From positions 1 to 56,878 of the forward strand of contig CANJIL010000015.1 in NCBI GenBank assembly GCA_947474455.1: a stretch of DNA of 56,878 nucleotides, written 5' to 3'. The notes under the pieces were generated by a model, which was given only the letters and a program-made list of their open reading frames with translations, was not told the origin of the DNA and made no database searches. A program made the translations under genes and the position numbers. Of this stretch, positions 8,290 through 38,171 are shown in pieces (the first letter of the stretch is position 1; every line of letters begins with the position of its first letter). Source of the stretch: Hyphomonadaceae bacterium (GTDB taxonomy: Bacteria; Pseudomonadota; Alphaproteobacteria; Caulobacterales; Hyphomonadaceae).

Positions 8290-9207
8290 ATGAGAATCCC
8301 TGACTGGGTCGTCTACGCGGTCGTGTTAGTTGTCATCGTCGGGACCCTGTTTTCCAGCGGCTCCGGGGATCGGGACGAGCCGTGGCGCTTTGGGCGCGAA
8401 CGGGCCGAGGTCGAGCCCGAATATGCCGACCGCGGCCGCACGCTCGTTATCGAGGACCTGGACGTCGCTGCGCCAGACTACGACCTGGCCGACGCCGAAG
8501 GCGAGCCTCTGCCAGATTCCGATCCCTTCGATGAGCGTGTGTTGGTCCAGGTGAGCGACGCGGAAGACGGCATCGGCACGGCTTTCGCGATCAACCAGTC
8601 CGGCGCCTGGCTGACGGCCCGGCATGTGGTCGATGGCTGTTCCCGCGTCGGCCTCGCTGTGGGCAATGGGCGGATGGTCCATGTCGACGCCGTGCGAACG
8701 TCGGAGAACACCGACCTTGCGCTCCTGCTCACAGACCGCGCGCCGACATCGCTTCCGCTGGCGCTCGACCGCGAGCTGCGAATCGGCGAACCCGGCTACC
8801 ATGTCGGCTTTCCTCAGGGACGGTCGGGCGAGGCCGTCTCCCTCCTCGAATCCCGCTCCAACCTCGTGACGCGCGGCCGCTATGCGATGGAGGAGCCTGT
8901 GTTGGCCTGGGCCGAGCAGGAAAGATCAGATGGCATCGAAGGCACCCTATCCGGCATGAGCGGCGGACCCGTGTTCAACCAGGACGGCGCCGTCATTGGG
9001 GTCACCGTGGCGGAGAGCCCGCGGCGGAATCGCATCTACACCGCGTCGCCCGACTCTATCCGCGATTTTCTGGAAGAGCAGGGTCTCGTGGCGCCCGGCG
9101 GCGAGGCGCACGCGCTCAGCGCTTCGTCGTACACGCAGGAAGCCGACCGCCTGCGCGATGAACGCGCGGTGGTGAAGGTGCTGTGCCGCGTGGGTGAGGA
9201 TCCGTGA
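8290..9207 (+). CDS. Membrane-anchored trypsin-like serine protease
   Basis: 305 residues. One N-terminal transmembrane anchor (about 6-22) is followed by an acidic linker and a chymotrypsin-fold domain from about residue 80. The triad is intact: His in WLTARHVVDG, Asp in NTDLALLLT, and Ser in GTLSGMSGGPVF. No PDZ domain is present, unlike DegP/HtrA. CGGAGA is about 7 bases upstream of the ATG. The stop overlaps the GTG of pyrF by 4 bases (GTGA), so the two are probably translated in tandem. The substrate is unknown; the active site should face the periplasm. Confidence 0.85.
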   Translation: MRIPDWVVYAVVLVVIVGTLFSSGSGDRDEPWRFGRERAEVEPEYADRGRTLVIEDLDVAAPDYDLADAEGEPLPDSDPFDERVLVQVSDAEDGIGTAFAINQSGAWLTARHVVDGCSRVGLAVGNGRMVHVDAVRTSENTDLALLLTDRAPTSLPLALDRELRIGEPGYHVGFPQGRSGEAVSLLESRSNLVTRGRYAMEEPVLAWAEQERSDGIEGTLSGMSGGPVFNQDGAVIGVTVAESPRRNRIYTASPDSIRDFLEEQGLVAPGGEAHALSASSYTQEADRLRDERAVVKVLCRVGEDP

Positions 9208-31895: not shown

Positions 31896-32461
31896 GCGAC
31901 AATGGGAGCGGCAAGCCAGTCCTGATCGTCGTTGCGCAGATCATCGGCGCATTCGGCGTGAAAGGCGAGGCGCGCGTTCGTTCCTTTACCGACGACCCAG
32001 AGGACTGCTTCTCCTACGGCCCGCTCCTCAATGCCGTTGGCAAGGTCGTACTGACGCCGGTGAAGCATCGCCCACTGAACGAGGGCTTTGGCGTAACGGC
32101 GGAGGAACAGCGTCAGCGCGAGGAATGGGAAGCGATGCGCGGCACGCTGCTGCATGCGGCGCGAGGGGCGATGCCAGAGGCCGACGCGGAAGACGGCGGG
32201 GTCTACGTTGCCGACCTCATCGGCATGGCGGTCAACCATGTCGATGGGCGCAACTTGGGGCACGTGAAGGCGGCGCATGATTTCGGCGCCGGCGACCTGA
32301 TCGAAGTGCAGCCGGCAATCGGCGCAAGCTTCCTGCTGCCCTTCACTGAAGAAGTTTTCCCTGCGATCGACTTGGAAGCGCGCATACTTAGCGCCGATCC
32401 CGACGATGGCTACCTGCCTGATAGCCTTCAGCGGCAGGATGCCGATGGCCGCACGAACTGA
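31892..32461 (+). CDS. rimM: Ribosome maturation factor RimM
   Basis: 189 residues. N-terminal RimM barrel (VAQIIGAFGVKGEARVRSFT) and C-terminal PRC-barrel (YVADLIGMAVNHVDGRNLG, LLPFTEEVFPAIDLEARI). The linker contains a charged EEQRQREEWEAMRGTLLH stretch. The TTG start overlaps the upstream stop (TTGA). RimM assembles the 30S head around uS19. trmD and rplS, its usual partners, do not follow; a convergent gene overlaps its last 34 bp. Confidence 0.93.
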   Translation: MSDNGSGKPVLIVVAQIIGAFGVKGEARVRSFTDDPEDCFSYGPLLNAVGKVVLTPVKHRPLNEGFGVTAEEQRQREEWEAMRGTLLHAARGAMPEADAEDGGVYVADLIGMAVNHVDGRNLGHVKAAHDFGAGDLIEVQPAIGASFLLPFTEEVFPAIDLEARILSADPDDGYLPDSLQRQDADGRTN

Positions 32462-34089
32462 TAGTAGAGCGTCGCGGCCTTGTCGTTCGACTGGCGGAGA
32501 TACCGCCGAATGGCCCCCTCCGCCCCTTGGTCGCGCGGTAAAGTGTAGAGCCGGTCGGTGAGATAGGCCACCAGTTCACGCGGCATCACCGCGATGTTGC
32601 GCTGCTCGTTGAATTCCGTATCGCGCCACACAACAAGGCAGGCTCCGTTAGTCTTCGGCGCCGGGAAGGCAGTCGGCGGCATCGCCGCGTCGATGACACG
32701 GGCGTGCGGGAATGCCGCGCGCAGATTCCCGGTAAGGTGGCGGTCGGCCCCGACGATTGTGCCCTCCTCGAAGCCCGCCTTCTTCAGCTCGTCAGCCCAT
32801 TCCTTGATCGGCGTATAGGGACGGCAGCCGCCCTCGTTGCACATGTCGATTTCCATCTGCCATTCGACAAATCGCCCGCCCGCCACCAGAAGCGCAAACG
32901 CGATCACCACGGCGCCGAATGCACGGATGGCGACCGGAAATTCCCCGCCCCGTTTGACGTGAAGGAACAGCCAGACCGGGGCCGTGAACAGGACAGGCAT
33001 CATCCAGTGCGCCTTGTAGGCCTGAACGCCAAGCGGCACGCTGAGCAGATAGGCGCCCAGCGCGAACAGGGTCGATTGCATGAACAGACGGCGCCAGGCC
33101 AGCTCGTGCGGCTCCTCGTCCGTATTGCGGCGCTGGAATATCGGATAGATGACGGGCAGCCACAGCGTCCAGAACAACATCATCCAGAACAGCGACAGCG
33201 GCAGGCTGAATTCAAGGAGCGCCCTGCCAAGCTGGGCGGCGGCGTTGCCCGCTCGCTCAGCCCATGCCGAATCGATCTCCCAGGACGCCGCATATTCGCT
33301 CCACGCATCGCCTATCGAGCCGATGTGGGTCGTGACCCAGGCGGCGTAGGGCAGATAGATCAGACCGGCGACCAGCAGCATGATGCCCATGCGCGGCAGC
33401 GTCATCGCATCGCGGAAGAAGGGCGAGAGCGCGATGGCGAGAAGCAGCGCGACCGGGAACACGACGAACAGGTGATGGGTGAGGAGTCCGATCCCGATGG
33501 CGCCGCCGAGATAGACCCAGTCGCGATAACGCCGCCATGTCAGGATGCGCGTCACGGCATGCAGGCAAAGCGACAAGCAGGCCATCAGGCCAACGGCGCC
33601 GAGCAGATCTTCATGCACCGACCAGCCGACCTGGAAGGTCAGTGCCCATGCGGCGACGGCTGCCGCTGAGACGCTCGGGCGAACCAGCACGTTGCGCGCG
33701 GCGAGGTAATAGAAAGTCAGCGCGATGAAAAGCAGAAGGTATTTCACCGCGAACACGATGGGCGGCGAAAGCGTGCCCCCCATCAACGCGAACGCATGCA
33801 GCCAGGCTAGCATGGGCGGCTGGCGCGCCTCGTAGCCGACCTGCAACGACTGCGCGAGCAGAAGCTGGTCCGCCTCCTCGATCGTGTAGATGGGCGCAAT
33901 GAAGGTACGGATCGCCCAGTGGGTCAGGCAGAACAGGAAAATCGCGAGGATGACCGCCGATTTGTCGAGTCGAAGGAAAGATTCGGAGAATGAGCCTTGC
34001 TCGCGCTGAGGCTTGCGGCCCTTGGCCGTCTTGGCGACGGATTTGGCCGGCTTTTTTAACTGCTTCGGCTGCCGAATCGGCTGCTTCAC
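32428..34089 (-). CDS. GT39/ArnT-like membrane glycosyltransferase
   Basis: 553 residues. A basic cytoplasmic head (about 1-40) is followed by many transmembrane helices and a C-terminal soluble domain (about 430-553). The first periplasmic loop has the ArnT/PMT-like IYTIEEADQLLLAQS, where an acidic pair is catalytic, and RQPPMLAWLHAF. Such enzymes move a sugar from polyprenyl phosphate onto lipid A, glycan or protein on the periplasmic face. The GT2 gene just upstream probably makes the lipid-linked donor. Confidence 0.8.
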   Translation of the reverse strand: MKQPIRQPKQLKKPAKSVAKTAKGRKPQREQGSFSESFLRLDKSAVILAIFLFCLTHWAIRTFIAPIYTIEEADQLLLAQSLQVGYEARQPPMLAWLHAFALMGGTLSPPIVFAVKYLLLFIALTFYYLAARNVLVRPSVSAAAVAAWALTFQVGWSVHEDLLGAVGLMACLSLCLHAVTRILTWRRYRDWVYLGGAIGIGLLTHHLFVVFPVALLLAIALSPFFRDAMTLPRMGIMLLVAGLIYLPYAAWVTTHIGSIGDAWSEYAASWEIDSAWAERAGNAAAQLGRALLEFSLPLSLFWMMLFWTLWLPVIYPIFQRRNTDEEPHELAWRRLFMQSTLFALGAYLLSVPLGVQAYKAHWMMPVLFTAPVWLFLHVKRGGEFPVAIRAFGAVVIAFALLVAGGRFVEWQMEIDMCNEGGCRPYTPIKEWADELKKAGFEEGTIVGADRHLTGNLRAAFPHARVIDAAMPPTAFPAPKTNGACLVVWRDTEFNEQRNIAVMPRELVAYLTDRLYTLPRDQGAEGAIRRYLRQSNDKAATLYYQFVRPSASCR

Positions 34090-34128
34090 GCGCCTTTTCC
34101 ACTCAACAAAACAAACGCCGAGGACCGG

Positions 34129-34917
34129 TCAGCGCGAGGCGCGCGGGTCGTTCCATTCAGCGGCCACGCCATAGCCCCCACGCCGCACAAGCCACATCAT
34201 GCCGAACAGGTCTACCAGCCCGGCGCCGAAGCGACCGAGAAAGCCGTATTTTGAGACGCCGTGACGCCGTTGCCGGTCTGCAACGGGCTCTTCGCGCACC
34301 TCCCAGCCAGCGCGTTTCACCAGCGCCGGCAGGAATCGGTGCATCGCGGCGAAAAAAGGCAGGTCCTGGAACGCGCGGCGCCGGATCAACTTGAAGCCGC
34401 AGCCTGTATCCGTGGCGTCGTCGCGCAAGCAGAAGCGGCGAATGCCATTGGCGACGCGCGACTGAAGCCATTTGAAGCCGCTGTCGTTGCGGCTCGTGCG
34501 GCGGCCGCAGATGATTCCGAGGGCCGGATTCTCGTCCTTTGCAGCGACCAGGTCCCAGATCCGGCGGGTGTCGGCCGGGTCGTTCTGCCCGTCGCCATCA
34601 AGCAGCTGCACCCAATTTCCGGCGCAGATGCGCAGCCCCGTGAACAGGGCCGCTGATTTTCCCCGCCGTATCACATGCGTAAGAACCTTGATGCGGTCGG
34701 GCCGCACGGCCTGGGCCGCAACGAGTTCCACGGCGGTCGAATCGCTGGAACAGTCATTGACGCAGACAATCTCATAGTCGACGCCCTCCAGGGCCGCGTG
34801 CACTTCGTCGATCAGCGGCTGGATGTTGCCGGCCTCGTTGTAGAACGGGATCAGCACGGAGAGGGATCGTCGCGGCTGGGGTGGCTGGTCAGATCCCAAG
34901 GCGGCGGTCCCTATCAA
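34129..34917 (-). CDS. GT2 family polyprenyl-phosphate sugar transferase (DPM1/ArnC-like)
   Basis: 262 residues. GT-A fold with SVLIPFYNEAGNIQPLIDEV, VNDCSSDST and the metal motif QLLDGDGQNDPAD. No long C-terminal membrane domain is visible, so it is closer to soluble DPM1-type enzymes. Expected to charge undecaprenyl phosphate with a sugar. It lies 39 bp upstream of the GT39 gene on the same strand and presumably feeds it. Confidence 0.85.
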   Translation of the reverse strand: MIGTAALGSDQPPQPRRSLSVLIPFYNEAGNIQPLIDEVHAALEGVDYEIVCVNDCSSDSTAVELVAAQAVRPDRIKVLTHVIRRGKSAALFTGLRICAGNWVQLLDGDGQNDPADTRRIWDLVAAKDENPALGIICGRRTSRNDSGFKWLQSRVANGIRRFCLRDDATDTGCGFKLIRRRAFQDLPFFAAMHRFLPALVKRAGWEVREEPVADRQRRHGVSKYGFLGRFGAGLVDLFGMMWLVRRGGYGVAAEWNDPRASR

Positions 34918-36449: not shown

Positions 36450-38102
36450 TCAGACATCACCGCACACCGGCGGCAACTCCGCATCCTTGACCTTCCGTCG
36501 CGCGATATCGAGCACCAGCCGGAACGACACGCCATAACCGAAAATGCCAAGCTCGTCGCCGGTCCCCGGGCCGATGCTCGTGTGGATCGCCACAACCTTT
36601 CCCGTGGTCAGGTCGAGCACGGCCGATCCCGTGGCCCCTGCTGATGTCGCATAGGTGTAGCGGATCGCATAAGGATCCGATTTGTCCCGTCGCTCGCTGA
36701 CATAGAGCGTGACGGCAGCCTTTTCAGGGGCGGCCGGATCGATCTTCACGCCATACATTGCGAGATGAACAGCCTCGCCGGGGCTGTCGCCTCCGCCCAT
36801 GCCGAGGGCGGAGCAATCGACATCCGACGCCTGCAGGGCGCGCGCGCCTCTCGGTAGATCGCCCGACAGCAGCCAGAGCTCGAACGGTTTTATCCCCGCC
36901 ATCTCGATCGGCGTGCGCCACACCATTTCGGTCGCTTGCAACGGCTTATCGCCCGACTGCTCGACGGCCGGGAAGCGCACCGAGGGCTTGTCGCTCGCGG
37001 CGCCGCCGGAATTCAGCGTAGTCTGCTGGTCGGCTGGCGTGCCGGTGGGTGTGGGATCCACGCGCGCCTGGGGCGCGCCTGTCAGCAGCAGAGCCTTCCC
37101 GGCATAGCGCGGATGCACCAGCGCGCCGTCGATGACGAAGCCGGAGTTGGCCGCCGGAACGCCGTCAAGGTTGAGGCGGTCGACGCGCGCGACCGCTCCG
37201 GAAAACTGCGCCGCCGTCTGGAACCAGCCATCCGGCAGGGTGAGCCGCCCTTCATACTCCGCAACCTGCAGCCCGATGCGCGCGGACAGGCGCATATTGG
37301 CCGACTCGAGCAGATTCTTAGCCGCCACCGCCTCGTCACGGCTGACCTTCGCCTCCCCCTCGGCCTTCGATGCGCTCTGCCATTGCCACGCCGCGACCGC
37401 TGCAAGACCTGCAAACACCACGGCGACGGCGGAGACCGTGGTCAGCAGTCCGCGCCTTGCCGCCATCGCCTTGTGTTCGGCTTCCGTGCGGGCGTCCGCG
37501 GAGGCCTTGATGAAATCAGCCTGTTCGTCGGTGACGGCAGCCGCTGAGATCGGCTTGTCAGCCATCCACTTCCTGGCTGCATCTATGTCATCGCCACGCA
37601 GAAGCAGTGCGGGCGCACGGCTGCGCGCGGACCAGCGCCGGCTGAGTTCGGCCAGCCGCGTGTGCTCGCGGATCCAGTCGATATCTGTACGCACCGCCGC
37701 CGCGAGATCGGCTAGGCCGGCCGCGAAGGTGCGCCCCTCTCCGGTGAAGAGGATGTAGTTCAGGCGCTTCATCGCTGCCGGCGCCGCTGCATCGTCGACC
37801 GGACGCCACACGACGGGAAGAATGCGCTTCCGCAACGCCAGCGCCTGGCGGAACTCCTCCGCGCAATTTTCCGATTTCAGCGAGTCGGGTGAAATCACAT
37901 AGACGATGCTGTCAGCCTCGGAGATCAATCCCGCGAGGCGCTTCTCCCAGTCTTCGCCCGCGGCGATATCCTGCCGATCGATGTAGGGTGCAAAGCCGCA
38001 CGCCGCTAGACCAAGTACGAGATCGGACGCGAACGCCTTGTCGGCGCGCGAATAGGAGACGAACACCTTGATGCGCGTTTCAATGTCGACCGACTGCGCC
38101 AT
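36450..38102 (-). CDS. TIR-domain protein with transmembrane helix and C-terminal degenerate trypsin-like domain
   Basis: 550 residues. The TIR domain (about 10-140) has VFVSYSRADKAFASDL, then YIDRQDIAAGEDWEKRL, and SENCAEEF with the candidate NADase Glu83. A helical linker (DLAAAVRTDIDWIREHTRL, about 133-210) is shared with TIR-WD40 proteins. One transmembrane helix spans 218-239. The C-terminal ~290 residues look chymotrypsin-like: SGFVIDGALVHPRY (possible His330) and SAGATGSAVLDLTTGKVVAI, where Thr491 occupies the expected Ser position, so peptidase activity is doubtful. GGAGGGG precedes the ATG. Roles in defence or signalling are possible; no partner gene is evident. Confidence 0.8.
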   Translation of the reverse strand: MAQSVDIETRIKVFVSYSRADKAFASDLVLGLAACGFAPYIDRQDIAAGEDWEKRLAGLISEADSIVYVISPDSLKSENCAEEFRQALALRKRILPVVWRPVDDAAAPAAMKRLNYILFTGEGRTFAAGLADLAAAVRTDIDWIREHTRLAELSRRWSARSRAPALLLRGDDIDAARKWMADKPISAAAVTDEQADFIKASADARTEAEHKAMAARRGLLTTVSAVAVVFAGLAAVAAWQWQSASKAEGEAKVSRDEAVAAKNLLESANMRLSARIGLQVAEYEGRLTLPDGWFQTAAQFSGAVARVDRLNLDGVPAANSGFVIDGALVHPRYAGKALLLTGAPQARVDPTPTGTPADQQTTLNSGGAASDKPSVRFPAVEQSGDKPLQATEMVWRTPIEMAGIKPFELWLLSGDLPRGARALQASDVDCSALGMGGGDSPGEAVHLAMYGVKIDPAAPEKAAVTLYVSERRDKSDPYAIRYTYATSAGATGSAVLDLTTGKVVAIHTSIGPGTGDELGIFGYGVSFRLVLDIARRKVKDAELPPVCGDV

Positions 38103-38171
38103 AGCCCCTCCGCTAACCGGCGAGCTTAATTCAGAAGAGGGCAGGGAAGAAGCGCTCCCAATGCACTGAAA

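Follow-up and report, generated by a model that had tools for sequence, protein, structure and literature searches.

A gene encoding a predicted membrane protein, in which a TIR domain is tied through a single hydrophobic helix to a trypsin-like domain devoid of its entire active site, was identified in a Hyphomonadaceae genome (contig CANJIL010000015.1; the whole stretch of 56,878 nucleotides that was analysed is called the window below). Because the outer protease domain has lost its complete active site, the protein is probably a sensor, and the best explanation, to which we assign a probability of roughly 0.55, is a single-pass receptor transmitting signals from outside the cell to its TIR domain. 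A genome survey, proposed in a preliminary description of this DNA, showed the same architecture in 12 of 105 genomes sampled from the window's family (the members below).

Gene structure and domain architecture

The gene occupies positions 36450..38102 on the minus strand as one uninterrupted open reading frame of 550 codons (550 aa), the plus strand of the same interval being broken by stops; its start ATG lies at 38102, with a Shine-Dalgarno-like GGAGGGG (38105-38111) directly upstream. From the N-terminus, the protein consists of a TIR domain (residues 13-132; 37707..38066, minus strand as all features of this gene; Pfam TIR_2 E 5e-24, scoring 85.6 bits where the cut-off is 28), a helix-rich-looking linker delimited by alignment (residues about 136-215; 37458..37697), a membrane helix (residues about 219-237; 37392..37448) recognized by a hydropathy maximum of 2.28 over 19 residues, and an outer pseudotrypsin domain (residues about 285-550; 36453..37250) assigned by a profile test, hhalign and a sub-threshold Trypsin_2 match. 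The layout of TIR, helix and degenerate protease given in the preliminary description was borne out by the TIR_2 match, the hydropathy maximum and the trypsin profile.

No Pfam family exceeded its cut-off in the linker, which is common to other TIR proteins: blastp matches to the TIR-linker part reached about residue 200-280 in proteins with different C-termini. Ten such proteins that were scanned carried WD40 repeats (three), TPR repeats (four) or no C-terminal family (three), while among eight further ones, several of whose frames end at the edge of their stretch, WD40 repeats were present in three (L107 also having an M23 domain) and no family in five. The best hydrophobic stretch started at residues 216-271 in 15 of the 18 TIR-linker proteins checked and at 303-326 in L014, L016 and L017, that of L014 being doubtful. 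With the common linker and one hydrophobic helix after it, the window protein fits this TIR-linker-membrane helix chassis. It shares the TIR, the linker and, usually, the following helix with the alphaproteobacterial proteins bearing WD40, TPR or M23 modules (among L014-L053, and L107), but differs from them in its C-terminal module, the pseudotrypsin. One of these proteins, encoded on the Agrobacterium plasmid pAtCG920 (L107:2971-5904), unites in a single chain a TIR, a hydrophobic helix at about 232-254, WD40 repeats and an M23 peptidase; M23 enzymes act on the cell wall. The occurrence of one TIR-linker part with various C-terminal modules favours the receptor reading.

In all 12 members, Lys and Arg are more numerous in the 15 residues before the helix than after it, and exactly two cysteines follow the helix, both at invariant places: Cys430 (36813..36815) and the sole other one, Cys547 (36462..36464). 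The charge bias and the two invariant cysteines suggest that the TIR domain is inside and the pseudotrypsin outside, with Cys430 and Cys547 as likely disulfide partners. An outside position of the dead protease had been considered likely before; it is now favoured by the positive-inside charge and by the cysteine pair, of which there had been no mention. Bacterial TIR proteins are mostly regarded as cytoplasmic enzymes. In the animal Toll-like receptors a single membrane helix connects a sensor on the outside with a TIR in the cytoplasm; compared to them, the chain order of the window protein is reversed and its outer domain unrelated, and the likeness is an analogy only.

Relationship of the outer domain to trypsin-like proteases

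The Pfam Trypsin_2 match in the outer domain (residues 468-506) stayed below threshold (E 0.0026, 18.9 bits against a cut-off of 27.6), and the trypsin assignment is not safe from Pfam alone. An independent profile was made of six live trypsin domains, which were found via TPR-S domains and not via the family profile, and were picked for showing both the His and the Ser motif. With this profile, all 12 members outscored every decoy, 4,800 of them shuffled and 12 reversed, and a chance similarity to trypsins was set aside with these 4,812 decoys; the window protein scored 28.6 bits, the two weakest members 15.3 and 10.7 and the best decoy 10.1, the margin between the last two values being small. 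The best single stretch of the window protein reached only E 0.004, indicating that the signal is spread over several segments. A comparison of the family with the independent trypsins by hhalign resulted in a probability of 98.0, and with the trypsins found through the family profile of 98.7, each being a single comparison and the latter partly circular. For four further Trypsin_2 proteins from the window's genome the probabilities were 0.1 against the family and 0.7 against the live TPR-S trypsins, a comparison that was not sensitive, since the live TPR-S trypsins gave no signal either.

At a threshold of E 10, a profile search of the PDB returned 24 matches, the best with E 0.036; several were to trypsin-like proteases in the region of the Ser, and the search was not taken as proof. 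Structure prediction, recommended in the preliminary description, produced models of the C-terminal domain of low confidence, with a mean pLDDT of 41.1 for the window target and 36.8 for the L036 target (AlphaFold, three sequences each); Foldseek with the former model found 79 PDB matches at E 10, of which none reached E 0.001, and this result was treated as meaningless. As both models were of low confidence, the fold rests on sequence profiles. Judged by these profiles, the outer domain is homologous to trypsin-like proteases, and the chymotrypsin-like C-terminal domain proposed earlier was upheld as sequence homology by the independent profile. Elsewhere in the window, a Trypsin_2 domain above the Pfam cut-off was observed at 8575-9003 on the plus strand, in a 305-aa open frame.

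Loss of the active site and conserved positions

Among the proteins combining TPR-S with Trypsin_2 (PF20308 with PF13365), L074:3160-6825 has the trypsin domain that is the nearest live kin found; it contains GTGF, LTNAH, an Asp and GSSGSPVF, which align in the same order with SGFVIDG, LLLTGAP, PFELW and GATGSAVL of the window protein. In L074:3160-6825 the triad is present together with TPR-S, in contrast to the window protein, which has lost the triad, has a TIR and a membrane helix, and gave no Pfam match to PF20308 (TPR-S) at E 1. The catalytic His is replaced by Pro344 (37071..37073; LLLTGAP against LFLTNAH of live relatives), the catalytic Asp by Pro406 (36885..36887; DCTIVEL in a live relative) and the catalytic Ser by Thr491 (36630..36632; G(S/N)SGSPVF in live relatives), and each of the three triad residues was found in 0/12 members. 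The residues at the Ser column are T, G, M, G, G, F, F, T, T, F, F and L, with a Ser one residue ahead of it in L036, L008 and L037; the Asp column is never Asp, G071 and G192 having one a residue earlier; and the members' counterparts of LTNAH read LLLTGAP, LLVLPA, LLVTPK, LLVLYA, FLLTPRF, YILTPTF, LLLSPHF or LLVPAM, none with His at the His place and one (G244) with His one residue earlier. The alignment thus confirmed Thr491 at the catalytic Ser position, and the survey of this position found Ser in none of the members; the loss of His and Asp, and its extension over the whole family, had been missed before. His507 (36582..36584) is invariant (12/12) and corresponds to the first His in the IAIHH segment of live relatives, a position which we take to be near the substrate pocket in trypsin-like folds.

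As no member retains a triad residue at its aligned position, the outer domain may well bind rather than cut, as the preliminary description had it. According to the available part of PMC7159879, the inactive trypsin effector domains of the MoxR-vWA conflict systems have likewise lost catalysis and were proposed to be peptide binders or dominant-negative regulators. They belong, however, to vWA/MoxR systems, while no PADLOC match was present beside the window gene, and a fusion of these inactive trypsins with a membrane TIR was not found in the same part of that paper. More generally, no earlier description of a membrane TIR with an inactive trypsin domain was found among the entries listed in literature searches, which covered few subscription-journal papers and included the available parts of PMC7159879, PMC8195603, PMC10907252 and PMC12799240.

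TIR domain

TIR_2 was above its cut-off in all 11 members scanned, one of the 12 being left out of the scan. The candidate NADase residue of the preliminary description, Glu83 (37854..37856), sits at the TIR glutamate position and is Glu in 12/12 members, which makes it a candidate catalytic glutamate and is consistent with an enzymatically active TIR in this family. The TIR domains of G019 and G028 kept the Glu and lost residues 16, 42, 49, 80 and 99, common to the other ten members, so that the feature retained by the family may be something other than catalysis. The degraded members, L013 (G019) and L015 (G028), represent a natural test of the importance of TIR catalysis. The window TIR also resembled Thoeris ThsB/ThcB4, matching NF058526 and the ThsB models weakly; however, its NF058526 score of 50.5 bits is far from the family cut-off of 220, and PADLOC detected no ThsA-like partner among the eight neighbours of the gene.

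Distribution, selection and phylogeny

A search profile of nine C-terminal domains (alignment A2) placed the outer domain in 11 of the 89 good-quality genomes among the 105 of the window's family, and in 6 of 10 genera. At E 0.001, 15 of the 299 genomes sampled from the order matched, nine of them with members and six with weak matches only; those of the six that were scanned were trypsin-like proteins, and L067 and L068, which had no Pfam scan, carry the Ser motif. In the overlapping class (385 genomes) and phylum (398 genomes) samples, with at most five candidates scored per genome, a member was found only in the window's own genome, the class sample adding two weak matches.

The reading frame is uninterrupted in all 12 members. 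Outer-domain dN/dS values were 0.125 (G021/G029), 0.254 (G071/G192), 0.216 (G010/G005) and 0.583 (G000/G011), and those of the TIR, in the same pair order, 0.026, 0.165, 0.056 and 0.139, below the outer domain in 4/4 pairs; the values are rough, since some synonymous distances exceed 1, and the G019/G028 pair was dropped as saturated for both domains. They suggest that the outer domain remains under constraint despite the triad loss, and the lower TIR values make the pattern expected for a receptor. The highest value belongs to the window and G011, whose outer domains are 37% identical, and could also mean relaxed constraint. A decaying gene, that is, a once-active TIR-protease losing its function, would agree with this value, with the disappearance of every triad residue and with the degraded TIR in G019 and G028, but hardly with intact frames in the whole family, an invariant Cys pair and His507, and dN/dS of only 0.125-0.254 in three pairs; it was set aside as highly improbable.

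The gene tree groups the members by genus. Ten of the 12 members are kept in one group by the TIR-linker tree (support 82/97), and the pair of G019 and G028 sits elsewhere on a long branch; accordingly, a recent swap of outer domains was not seen.

Genomic surroundings

The gene order in the window is rimM, a PMT_2-type transferase, a family 2 transferase, a P450, the TIR-pseudotrypsin gene, a glyoxalase and a ligase. The transferases, P450, amidase and ribosomal L19 of the neighbourhoods were named by Pfam, while rimM, trmD, glyoxalase and formate-tetrahydrofolate ligase are our assumptions made by eye. The two glycosyltransferases (32428..34917, minus strand) are near the gene in three genera and are not claimed as parts of the mechanism. 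G010, G011 and G020 have rimM, both transferases, the P450 and the TIR-pseudotrypsin gene, and G019 and G028 the same set minus the P450, beside trmD, with the gene and the two transferases side by side in the same direction. In G005 the pieces of the locus are on two contigs in a consistent order, and in the other five members neither transferase was present in the stretches fetched around the gene; the same glycosyltransferase genes adjoin it in 6 or 7 of 12 cases.

Of the 15 same-genus genomes, 4 have the gene. The locus was readable on both sides in five of the eleven without it: in G009 a gap of 7 bases separates the P450 from the amidase, and the place is taken by other genes in G003, G013, G008 and G001. 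Of the remaining six, G006 and G014 allowed a reading of one side, G004 and G002 were limited by their contig ends, and no transferase match was obtained in G007 and G012. Where the TIR gene is absent, the P450 or amidase is adjoined by a conserved gene in which AVAHQDDWQLF or a very similar sequence lies close to the start (L094:6090-7016, with like genes in L095, L096, L098 and L099); by eye, we presume a resemblance to PIG-L deacetylases.

These surroundings raise the alternative of a sensor of envelope stress, glycans or the cell wall, linked to the adjoining glycosyltransferases, whose TIR would give a regulatory signal instead of killing. It would be consistent with the two transferases being adjacent or one P450 away in the window, G010, G011, G020, G019 and G028, with their codirectional arrangement with the gene in the latter two, and with the M23 module found on the same TIR-linker part; but the transferases also occur without the gene in other same-genus genomes and are missing around it in five members, and we regard this explanation as unlikely.

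The other alternative is abortive-infection defence, in which the outer domain or the whole receptor would detect phage at the envelope and the TIR would deplete NAD+ to stop it. TIR domains are common defence effectors, the PADLOC TIR models matched the window TIR (E 6e-12 and weaker), and the presence in 12 of 105 family genomes is patchy. However, none of the eight neighbouring window genes scanned gave a PADLOC match at E 1e-5, the protein had no match in a phage collection, two virus scans found no relative, and the four plasmid records that matched did so through the TIR or TIR-linker part alone; grouping with defence or mobile genes was, therefore, not found in the neighbourhood, plasmid and phage comparisons or by PADLOC on the window's neighbours. 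Taken with the tree grouped by genus, the conserved locus in three genera speaks for long vertical residence with losses and not for a defence island. Phage defence is thus possible but rather improbable, and the candidate conflict system of the preliminary description is so far unsupported. The absence of the gene in close relatives and the degraded TIR in one genus provide built-in natural controls for the receptor reading.

TPR-S trypsins as nearest live kin and possible partners

The nearest live kin found were trypsins mostly with TPR-S domains, one of them in the same genome. Nine weak matches to the family profile had either both the His and the Ser motif (five) or the Ser motif only (four), and all four of the former five that were Pfam-scanned matched TPR-S (L063 just below the cut-off). 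Of the TPR-S loci, 16 of 23 were examined by their longest open frame with a coarse pattern: eight had the His-Ser pair, seven had just the Ser motif, and one lacked both. TPR-S matches occurred in 23 of the 105 family genomes, namely in 7 of the 12 that have the gene and in 16 of the 93 that lack it (Fisher p 0.0039, with no correction for relatedness; G021, whose related trypsin L071 was not scanned for TPR-S, counted as lacking it), and several of these matches lie in proteins that also have a live trypsin. In view of this co-occurrence, one cannot conclude, as had been claimed earlier, that the protein does without a partner gene.

TIR signalling to a caspase-like protease is the topic, by its title, of a paper by Rousset et al. 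(2025). The kinship with TPR-S trypsins, which carry a domain reported to sense nucleotide-derived signals, and their co-occurrence with the gene suggest a two-part circuit of immunity or stress running from outside to inside, in which the dead trypsin would be a periplasmic receptor and the TIR would produce a signal derived from NAD; this signal would be read by a TPR-S protein encoded at another locus, which would then activate its fused live trypsin. We consider such a circuit quite doubtful. If it were true, a dead receptor and a live effector would have come from one protease lineage. The same genome encodes a 1222-aa protein with TPR-S and a live-looking trypsin domain (L074:3160-6825, G000:C6), the C-terminal stretch of which presumably resembles, by eye, a phage-type lysozyme (no Pfam match at 0.001). 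It also has a second TIR-linker gene (L075, G000:C43:16509-17128), a two-piece match with an internal stop that looks like a pseudogene.

Proposed mechanism and significance

In the receptor reading, the TIR would reside in the cytoplasm, and the dead trypsin domain would be periplasmic, with a disulfide holding it and its protease fold kept as a binding module after catalysis was lost. The outer domain would bind a peptide, a protein or an envelope fragment in the periplasm, and this would change the receptor assembly and bring the TIR domains together, resulting in NAD+ cleavage or in production of an NAD-derived signal, with defence, cell death or envelope stress signalling as possible outcomes. 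With a TIR domain tied through the membrane to a trypsin domain whose active site is fully lost in 12/12 members, this putative receptor would represent a concrete candidate for bacterial outside-in TIR signalling.
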